The notes below the pieces were generated by a model, which worked only from the letters and a program-made list of their open reading frames with translations, was not told the origin of the DNA and made no database searches. Position numbers and translations under genes: made by a program. From Rossellomorea aquimaris (lineage in GTDB: Bacteria; Bacillota; Bacilli; Bacillales; Bacillaceae_B), in NCBI RefSeq assembly GCF_008180865.1, contig NZ_VTEX01000001.1:705261-769260 (forward strand): a stretch of DNA of 64,000 nucleotides, given 5' to 3'. Numbering within the stretch: position 1 is the stretch's first letter; each line of letters opens with the position of its first letter. Below, one piece after another: positions 59,979 to 62,284 of this stretch.

Positions 59979-61304
59979 ATGATATATAGAGGGAGAATGG
60001 TATCAGTGCTTATTGGACTTTTACTAGTCTTAACATGGGATTTTATTTATTACTTTGTTCTGCATTATCCAGTGGATTTGAAAGTGGATTTGGTGTTCAC
60101 TCTATTGATTCTCTTTATCAGCTACTATATGGGGAAAAATTATGACACAAGCTATAAAACTCTCGCTGCCCTGCGAAAGAGTGAGGAGAGAGTGAAGCTT
60201 CTAAATGAAGAAATGCAGCATGTGCTTCAGAGTATCGATGAAGTTGTCTTTCATACCAATTCTAAGGGAGAGTTTCAATTTCTGAATCAATCCTGGGAAG
60301 ACTACACTGGATATACGGTTAAAGAAAGTTTACATAAGAATGCACTTCATTTTATATCCCTGCATGAACGTCATGAAATACTTCGAATGGTCAGACAAAG
60401 TATAAGCATGAAGAGGGAAAAAATGAAAATGGACTTCTCTTATCAGAAGAGGGATGGGCAGTTTCGTTGGGGTGAAGTGAATGTTAAGTTAAACTACAAT
60501 GAAAACGGTGAACTTCTTGGGACGGTGGGAACCATCTCAGACATTACCGAAAGAGTACATAATGAAGAAGAATTGATAGAAATGAATGAAACGTTAGCCA
60601 TAGAATCTCAAAAGCTATCTGTCGCCGGGCAATTAGCAGCCGGAATTGCACATGAGGTACGTAATCCCCTTACGTCGATCAACGGTTTCTTACAGTTATT
60701 AAGAGATGATGCCGATGAGAAGACGAAGGAATACTTAGGGATTGTCTTTTCTGAAATCAAGAGGATTGAACTTGTGCTGAGCGAATTATTGATTCTCGCA
60801 AAGCCGCAATCCGTTACATATAGACGAATCAATATCATTGAGACCCTTGATCATGTTGCGAAATTATTAAATACGAATGCTATTTTATATAATATTGAAA
60901 TCCAAACCGATTTCCATGAAAGGGAGCTTCATATTCGTGGGGATGAAAATCAGCTAAAACAAGTATTTATTAACTTACTTAAAAACGCCATAGAATCAAT
61001 GCCTCATGGGGGAACGATTACGATTAGTGCAGACTTGTCCTCTTATAACAAGGTTCAATTAACCTTCAAAGATGAGGGAGTAGGCATGAAAAAAGAAACG
61101 CTGGATAAACTCGGGGAGCCTTTCTTCACAACGAAGACGAAAGGCACGGGTTTAGGCCTCACCATATGTCTGAGAATTCTTCGTGATCATGGAGCGGATA
61201 TCAGGGTGCAAAGTGAGCAGGGAGAAGGTACCACCTTCCATATCATGTTTGAAGCTGTTCAAGCTTCAGAAAGAAAAAAGAGGGAAACCTTACAAAACCA
61301 ATGA
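59979..61304 (+). CDS. PAS-domain sensor histidine kinase, sporulation-kinase type
   Basis: The 441-residue protein has two transmembrane helices (about 8-28 and 36-52), a PAS domain (about 75-190, VLQSIDEVVFHTN, GTISDITERV), a HisKA domain with H225 in AAGIAHEVRNPLTSINGFLQLL-type sequence, and a HATPase (DENQLKQVFINLLKNAIESMP near 325-345, GTGLGLTIC). The phosphoacceptor region is the type found in Bacillus KinA-KinE, which feed Spo0F, so a role in the sporulation phosphorelay is likely. There is no adjacent response regulator, as for orphan Kin proteins. Confidence 0.88.
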   Translation: MIYRGRMVSVLIGLLLVLTWDFIYYFVLHYPVDLKVDLVFTLLILFISYYMGKNYDTSYKTLAALRKSEERVKLLNEEMQHVLQSIDEVVFHTNSKGEFQFLNQSWEDYTGYTVKESLHKNALHFISLHERHEILRMVRQSISMKREKMKMDFSYQKRDGQFRWGEVNVKLNYNENGELLGTVGTISDITERVHNEEELIEMNETLAIESQKLSVAGQLAAGIAHEVRNPLTSINGFLQLLRDDADEKTKEYLGIVFSEIKRIELVLSELLILAKPQSVTYRRINIIETLDHVAKLLNTNAILYNIEIQTDFHERELHIRGDENQLKQVFINLLKNAIESMPHGGTITISADLSSYNKVQLTFKDEGVGMKKETLDKLGEPFFTTKTKGTGLGLTICLRILRDHGADIRVQSEQGEGTTFHIMFEAVQASERKKRETLQNQ

Positions 61305-61307
61305 AAT

Positions 61308-61342
61308 AAGAGCCCTTATAGAACGAATATAAGGGCTCTTTC
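61308..61342. terminator. Bidirectional terminator between kinase and tRNA
   Basis: GAGCCCTTATA pairs with TATAAGGGCTC around GAACGAA, followed by TTT. It can end the kinase transcript and the minus-strand tRNA transcript. Confidence 0.9.
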
Positions 61343-61355
61343 ATTTGTGAAGATA

Positions 61356-61452
61356 TGGCGGGACTGCCTGGGAATCGAACCCAGCGGAGACGGCACGCGC
61401 CTCCCAAGAGGTTTTGAAGACCTAGGCATGCACCAGCTCTACAATCAGCCCC
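61356..61452 (-). tRNA. selC: Selenocysteine-type tRNA (anticodon UCA)
   Basis: On the minus strand a 97-base tRNA-like sequence begins GGGGCTGATTG and ends in CAGTCCCGCCA, with the CCA encoded. GGGGCTG pairs with CAGTCCC (one G-U). The T arm is CTGGG-TTCGATT-CCCAG, and the anticodon loop is CTTCAAA, giving UCA, which reads UGA. A long variable arm forms from GGAGGC and GTCTCC. Length, variable arm and anticodon are those of tRNA-Sec. By hand the D arm and the outer anticodon-stem pairs fit poorly, so a degenerate or unusual UCA tRNA is possible. No selA, selB or selD is in the window. Confidence 0.75.
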
Positions 61453-61756
61453 GAAAATAAGTATATATATGTTATACCATAGAAGAAAAACTTGTTCAAA
61501 TGTTTTTAGAATCTATAGGTACCATTGTCCAGTGTAAAAAGTTTGATGAACAGATAGAATAATAGGCTGTATATTTAAAATATTTACAAGATTTAAACTT
61601 TGTAGAAATTAGAAAATTCTTCTTTACCAGTCGATTCTCCCCGTGATAAGATACTTTTTGCCGGCTTATCATAAATTGAAGAAAGCGATTTCCAATAGGA
61701 ATTGCTAACCTTCTATACTTGAACATGTTGATTGAGACAGAGAGGGGAAAACAAGT

Positions 61757-62284
61757 ATGAAAAAAGTATGGTTTTTAGGTCTGGGTCTATCTTTAGCACT
61801 GGTTGGATGCTCCGATTCAGGTTCTGACGAAGCTAAAAAAGAGGAAACAACAAATGCATCGGAAGAAAACGAAAATGTTGCTGGAGATTTAATGGATTTT
61901 TATTTGAATTTAACAACAACCGTCAATGGTGTTGATATTGACCTTAATGGATATGAAGAAGCGATTGCAGGAGAAGAGCCTCCTGCAGGAGAAGAGTTGG
62001 AGAAAATGAAGGAAGCTGCTGCTGCATCAGCAACTGAATCTGCTAAAGCGGTAGAAGGACTGCAGATCCCTGAAGGTCTTGGTGATCAAGAGGACGCGGT
62101 GGAATCATTCCGATCGACTTTGACAGAATCATATAATATGAAAGCTGAAGCACTCTCAAAAGAAGGCGAAACTGATTTAACGGCAGCCAATGAAAAATTA
62201 AACGAAGCAGAAAACCAAATCAAAGAAATTCTTGATGAGGCTGGCTTAGTTAGCTCAAGCTTAATCAGTGACTTAAACGGTTAA
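61757..62284 (+). CDS. Small acidic lipoprotein, unknown function
   Basis: The 175-residue protein has a lipoprotein signal with lipobox LVGC (lipidated C18), a polar linker rich in S, D, E and K (about 19-45), and an alanine- and glutamate-rich helical region (EKMKEAAAASATESAKAVEGL near 88-108, ALSKEGETDLTAANEKLNEAENQIKEILDEA near 138-165). It would sit outside the membrane. No domain is recognised. GAGAGGGG precedes the ATG, and a strong terminator follows. Confidence 0.85.
   Translation: MKKVWFLGLGLSLALVGCSDSGSDEAKKEETTNASEENENVAGDLMDFYLNLTTTVNGVDIDLNGYEEAIAGEEPPAGEELEKMKEAAAASATESAKAVEGLQIPEGLGDQEDAVESFRSTLTESYNMKAEALSKEGETDLTAANEKLNEAENQIKEILDEAGLVSSSLISDLNG

Follow-up and report, generated by a model that had tools for sequence, protein, structure and literature searches.

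The question raised by this locus is whether a 97-nucleotide sequence on the minus strand of a Rossellomorea aquimaris contig is the gene for a selenocysteine tRNA (selC) that is at work in the cell. The window, by which we mean the whole stretch of 64,000 nucleotides that was analysed, corresponds to C1:705261-769260 in a genome of 4.74 Mb and 17 contigs; the genus is one that we take to be aerobic and fairly close to Bacillus subtilis. From the letters alone the initial annotation had left three options, namely a working selC, a decaying one, or an unusual UCA tRNA by which UGA is read as a different amino acid. These were weighed with the rest of the genome and with a genus sample of 36 genomes (this one and 35 other Rossellomorea). 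The features are collected in Table 1.

Table 1. Positions of selC, its surroundings and selenocysteine-related genes; positions without a prefix are those of the window.
Feature	Position	Strand	Basis
selC, tRNA-Sec (UCA), 97 nt, encoded GCCA end	61356..61452	-	ARAGORN + RF01852
UCA anticodon (TCA on the minus strand) inside the CTTCAAA loop	61415..61417	-	sequence reading + ARAGORN
Likely selC promoter, TTGAAC - 17 bp - TATAAC, 18 bp upstream of the tRNA	61471..61499	-	genus comparison
Bidirectional terminator-like hairpin common to selC (-) and the convergent kinase gene (+)	61308..61340	both	13-pair stem
Convergent PAS - HisKA - HATPase_c sensor kinase, TGA stop	59979..61304	+	Pfam
Divergent small putative lipoprotein, no Pfam family	61757..62284	+	ORF + Pfam search
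Sec-peroxiredoxin gene	C1:1140081-1140710 (L143:4082-4711)	+	PF00578, UGA read-through
selA	C1:1048153-1049529	+	profile search
selB	C1:778491-780314		profile search

The tRNA-Sec features that had been read from the sequence were confirmed. ARAGORN called a tRNA-SeC with the anticodon tca (position 36), which was the sole tRNA called in the window. The covariance model of bacterial tRNA-Sec (RF01852), with which a check had been advised, matched 61360-61452 over the whole model (1-91) with 51.3 bits (cut-off 47, E 2.1e-7) and was the sole Rfam match above the gathering cut-off within the window. G73, the encoded CCA, a long variable arm of 7 bp and the CTTCAAA anticodon loop are all present. 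Elsewhere in this genome the model reached up to 43.5 bits; the best 150 of 411 candidates were scored, and the single-copy status of selC rests on these. In the genus and in 14 control genomes the best 86 candidates per genome were scored. The RF01852 cut-off was also passed by five of the 14 controls (E. coli, Caulobacter, Thermus, Thermotoga and M. jannaschii). A selA match above cut-off was obtained in one control genome, taken to be E. coli, and no selA match was found in Caulobacter, Thermus and Thermotoga, though the tRNA cut-off was passed there. This indicates that the tRNA score alone is no proof and lends weak support, so that the rest of the genome is needed.

A poor fit of the D arm and of the base of the anticodon stem had also been noted, and correctly so. 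In the tRNA of the window the D stem has five of its six pairs, with a single base bulged out and an A-A mismatch, and the anticodon stem consists of 4 bp and a C-G pair over an internal loop. When the single strand was folded by free energy (z -1.2), the acceptor, variable and T arms formed and the D and anticodon arms did not. The 30 Rossellomorea genomes that carry the gene hold 17 distinct sequences, that of the window being identical to the one in genome G022. In all 17 the acceptor stem has seven pairs followed by an A8-G mismatch at the eighth position, so that the 13 positions of the acceptor and T stems amount to 12 Watson-Crick or G-U pairs. The T stem has five pairs and the variable arm seven, one of which varies from G-C to A-T. 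The D stem, with a 4-base UGGU loop and one bulged base, has six pairs in 14 sequences and five in the remaining three; among the 14 the bulge is at column 13 in 11 and at column 14 in four, one sequence having both. The five-pair sequences have a mismatch, A-A only in the window genome and G022 and T-T in G001 and G021. The anticodon stem has four pairs, and beyond an irregular internal loop C28-G48 closes it; pair 31-43 is G-C or A-T, pair 30-44 is A-T, G-T or C-G (broken in 2/17), and 29-46 pairs in 2/17. Outside the D and anticodon region the tRNA is almost invariant in the 30 genomes. As the irregular features other than the A-A mismatch recur throughout the genus, the poor fit of the two arms is for the most part accounted for by a trait of the lineage.

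The Rossellomorea tRNA shares with the bacterial tRNA-Sec of RF01852 the UCA anticodon, the UGGU D loop, the plan of a 6-bp D stem, the long variable arm, the 13 acceptor and T-stem positions, G73 and the encoded CCA. It differs in the A-G at the eighth acceptor pair (17/17), the single bulged D-stem base and, in most sequences, the anticodon stem of 4 bp with a C-G pair over an internal loop. Unusual tRNA-Sec species with a 12-bp acceptor-T stem and with bulges in the D stem (13a) and the anticodon stem (43a) were described from genomes with complete systems in the available text of Santesmasses et al. (2017, PMC5330540). The bulged D-stem base, the additional base(s) at the bottom of the anticodon stem and the 12 acceptor-T pairs are common to those tRNAs and ours, whereas in Rossellomorea eight and not seven residues separate the T stem from G73, which gives the 8/5 length with a mismatch. 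Since 12-pair tRNA-Sec species with complete systems have been published, a full 13-pair acceptor-T domain was not taken as defining. The words Bacillus, Bacillaceae and Firmicutes were not found in the main text of that article.

A search of the genome for selA, selB and selD, which had been recommended, revealed all three over their cut-offs with 546, 337 and 397 bits, respectively, selD containing one in-frame TGA. The whole-protein models TIGR00474, TIGR00475 and TIGR00476 were likewise all over cut-off, and the Pfam domains of the three proteins are SelA, SelB-wing and AIRS. A poor covariance score together with a genome devoid of these genes, the combination that had been named as speaking against a tRNA-Sec, was thus not what was observed; the tRNA score and the three genes all exceed their cut-offs. 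About 12 kb separate selB from selC and 9 kb separate it from the edge of the window, and selD (-), a SelW-like gene (+) and selA (+) are clustered about 280 kb from selC. The same divergent block of selD and SelW-like gene plus selA, with UGA in both of the first two genes, occurs in Salibacterium salarium, the SelA of which is 54% identical.

Within the genus selC, selA, selD and the SelW-like gene with its UGA were each found in the same 30 of the 36 genomes. The searches of G004, G011, G012, G013, G014 and G023 yielded none of these genes, the absence of the tRNA resting on the 86 best candidates of each genome. A second match of 46.2 bits in G008, considered as a further selC copy, proved to be a tRNA-Ser. 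In G024 selA and selD are each split into two matches. Decay of the system in this genome was considered and rejected, as the matches to the kinase and the lipoprotein are truncated there too and the genome has 10% contamination, which makes sequencing errors likely.

A decaying or dead selC, left behind after loss of the selenium system, would be in keeping with the irregular D arm and anticodon stem and with the RF01852 score, which is the lowest of the genus and common to the window genome and G022. However, selA, selB and selD exceed their cut-offs and keep open frames apart from a single Sec TGA, and the genome retains three UGA genes that are followed up below with their hairpins. The tRNA hardly varies outside the D and anticodon region, its irregularities bar the A-A mismatch are common to 30 genomes, and the six genomes without selA also gave no tRNA-Sec. 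Decay is therefore considered very improbable.

At least three genes of this genome contain an in-frame UGA, i.e. selD, the SelW-like gene and a peroxiredoxin gene. In SelD the Sec context is KAGUGCKL. The SelW-like gene, which was found by comparing read-through frames, is situated between selD and selA and encodes 79 residues with CMMU as its CxxU motif. The protein is over cut-off for PF10262 (Rdx; 73.7 vs 22.6 bits) and TIGR02174 (60.6 vs 34.2 bits) and below that of the narrower NF041051 (73.8 bits, cut-off 88). UGA occupies the CxxU position in all 30 genomes. The peroxiredoxin has 209 residues, matches PF00578 with 119.6 bits and carries Sec at the peroxidatic site (FFYSSDFTFVUPTE); it is the one match with a TGA among the 14 PF00578 matches of this genome. 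It scored 160.7 bits against PrxU NF040737 (cut-off 270) and 156 bits against AhpC TIGR03137 (cut-off 272). As the NF040737 cut-off was not reached, we name it Sec-peroxiredoxin and do not treat it as a member of the PrxU equivalog. At E <= 1e-40 it was found in 19 of the 36 genomes, all of them among the 30 with the trait and all with UGA at FTFxU (in G002 also a TAA). At the same threshold it was not found in the other 11 trait-bearing genomes, where the SelW-like protein and SelD are the known clients, nor in any of the six trait-free genomes.

The expectation that UGA-containing genes with bSECIS-like hairpins would accompany selC was thus borne out for SelD, the SelW-like protein and the peroxiredoxin. 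It was not borne out for formate dehydrogenase, since a PF00384 search of this genome at E <= 1e-10 gave no oxidoreductase, which means that a formate dehydrogenase of that type was likewise not detected. Molybdopterin oxidoreductases were also rejected as clients in the genus, PF00384 being matched in 13 of the 36 genomes and none of the 18 matches listed having an internal stop. A HesB-like client was dismissed too, as none of the three PF01521 matches of this genome contains a TGA. At another locus with a read-through frame, L126:17619-18311 (+), a short unit GTDLQTALIMKYR occurs twice together with a third start, 3' of a TlpA/ResA-like gene; the unit is perhaps an intergenic repeat family.

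A hairpin follows the UGA codon in each of the three clients, and each time the loop is small and begins with G. Bacterial SECIS elements whose small apical loop contains a G are described in PMC1088965. In the SelW-like gene the hairpin is CCGCGA-GTT (or GGT)-TCGCGG, base 23 after UGA being the first of the loop, and the stem is identical in 30/30 genomes; the Salibacterium counterpart has one changed base in the stem and one in the loop. The Sec-peroxiredoxin hairpin, GCAGC-GGTC-GCTGC, is identical in 19/19. Codons for amino acids that never change were then compared inside and outside the hairpins. For the SelW-like gene 4/4 such codons were unvaried inside vs 1/24 outside (30 genomes), and for the peroxiredoxin gene 5/6 vs 2/55 (19 genomes); the sequences are related, so that Fisher values from this comparison are not independent tests. 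For selD no difference was seen, 0/4 hairpin codons being unvaried. Its hairpin, TTGACGCAA-GTG-TTGCGTCAA, nevertheless keeps seven central pairs in all 24 distinct sequences. Six of these never vary and pair 28-42 is A-T in 14, G-T in eight and T-A in two. Inner pair 33-37 occurs as A-T (15 sequences), G-C (five) and G-T (one) and is lost in three, and the outer pair 25-45 is broken in four of the 24.

A UCA tRNA through which UGA codes for some other amino acid has to be considered because of the anticodon and the unusual stems, and because look-alikes exist, such as the selC* tRNA-Cys, which has U73, and the allo-tRNAs (both in the available text of PMC7609411). The window tRNA differs from selC* in having G73 and not U73. 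It has, moreover, a long variable arm and is accompanied by selA, selB and selD, and the UGA codons with their hairpins stand at the usual catalytic position of known selenoprotein families. UGA elsewhere is a normal stop: it ends four of the 41 long ORFs of the window, the sensor kinase gene beside selC included, which implies that UGA also serves as an ordinary stop in this genome. Reassignment is accordingly rated as even less probable than decay. A tRNA-Ser pseudogene or a chance match to a permissive model can be dismissed with equal firmness, in spite of the 43.5 bits reached elsewhere in the genome, the five controls over cut-off and the tRNA-Ser match in G008, since the anticodon is TCA, vs TGA in that tRNA-Ser, and the gene shares its distribution (30/36 genomes) with selA, selD and the SelW-like UGA gene.

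Given selA, selB and selD, the three UGA genes with hairpins and the co-occurrence in the same 30 of 36 genomes, the sequence is almost certainly a working selC and not a decaying or reassigned one, and it belongs to a complete selenocysteine system of the bacterial type in a Rossellomorea species. The first of the three options in the initial annotation is therefore the one that the genome supports. Expression and decoding, as predicted from these genes, would proceed as follows. The tRNA would be transcribed from its own promoter and end at the terminator common to the kinase gene. Seryl-tRNA synthetase would charge it with serine, which SelA would turn into Sec using selenophosphate from SelD. 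SelB would then deliver Sec-tRNA to UGA codons with a bSECIS hairpin downstream. The clients would be selD itself, the SelW-like CxxU redox protein and the peroxiredoxin with Sec as its peroxidatic residue.

The surroundings of selC are consistent with such a transcription unit. TTGNAY-17-TATAAC is present upstream of selC in 20 of the 30 genomes, a count given without a chance expectation. The site is unlisted in the consensus promoter scan, which demands a T at the last -10 position. The bidirectional terminator that had been proposed for the tRNA and the convergent kinase gene is indeed there on both strands with 13 pairs; terminator-like sites numbered two, vs a mean of 0.7 (sd 0.9) in shuffled sequences. 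The kinase neighbour was matched at 24 of the 30 selC loci, in some cases partially, and the divergent neighbour at 29, once in another arrangement. The putative lipoprotein call for the latter is based on LVGC near the N terminus of its product, presumably a lipoprotein motif.

In the available text of earlier surveys, three selenoproteins of three families were counted for the Firmicutes/Bacillales (Zhang, 2006, PMC1794560), and SelD, Prx and SelW-like proteins are among the top 20 selenoprotein families (Peng, 2016, PMC5029168). All three clients found here are on these lists. The system differs from the published trait in that no PF00384 match occurs in this genome and none with an internal stop in the genus, and in that selC, selB and selD-selW-selA lie at separate chromosome sites. 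No publication was found that links Rossellomorea, Bacillaceae selA/selD or Bacillus SG-1 to selenoproteins, in a search that covered few subscription papers. Likewise, nothing on Sec in Bacillales was found in the accessible parts of PMC13188914, PMC4561486, PMC9312934 and PMC2398784.

The Sec-peroxiredoxin deserves separate mention. Its comparison with solved structures led to known peroxiredoxins. Like PrxU (NF040737) and AhpC (TIGR03137) it belongs to the AhpC-TSA family with Sec or Cys at the peroxidatic site. Unlike these, it is without VCPA, which we take to be the usual motif of the resolving Cys, and has GVPANW or similar instead. Eighteen of the 19 genus proteins have an N-terminal FC, 15 of them as FCAQT; the G002 frame ends before FC. 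The query found 382 database relatives at E <= 1e-20, of which the best 120 were examined. Among these 120, 104 have 140 residues or fewer and are without the Sec region, and at least 60 of the 104 start with MAAVAAI or LAAVAAI, i.e. at the fourth codon after UGA. The other 16 are longer and have W at the Sec position in 15 cases and Cys in one (Alteribacter keqinensis); FCA is present in eight of them. The W presumably represents TGA translated under another code, and the short fragments from outside the genus probably carry a UGA upstream. VCPA was seen in no sequence among these best 120. They include entries named Neobacillus, Cytobacillus, Thalassobacillus, Salipaludibacillus and Pseudalkalibacillus, indicating that the Sec-peroxiredoxin family is wider than the genus. 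It may then be, with a probability that we put midway between acceptance and rejection, that selC serves an unannotated, formate-dehydrogenase-free selenoproteome across the Bacillaceae. Its client would be a distinct Sec-peroxiredoxin family with a peroxidatic residue that is almost always Sec, in which the C-terminal resolving Cys has been lost and the Cys of the N-terminal FCA probably resolves the selenenic acid.

In conclusion, a Bacillus-like core region very probably carries a working selC, and most of Rossellomorea (30 of the 36 genomes examined for selC, selA, selD and the SelW-like UGA gene) is equipped with genes for reading UGA as Sec. The tRNA itself is of a known type, and it is the formate-dehydrogenase-free selenoproteome and the peroxiredoxin that are of specialist interest. 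With 30 genomes that have the trait and six that do not, the genus offers a group in which to ask why Sec is kept without formate dehydrogenase. The available text of a recent review states that selenoproteins are rarely retained in aerobic bacteria (2026, PMC13188914). If the wider proposal is true, aerobic spore formers would keep Sec here for defence against peroxide, contrary to this rule. In any case the selenoproteome of these bacteria is partly hidden in databases, where the peroxiredoxin, to judge by the best 120 of 382 relatives, is mostly stored as a fragment that lacks the Sec region, or else has W in place of Sec.
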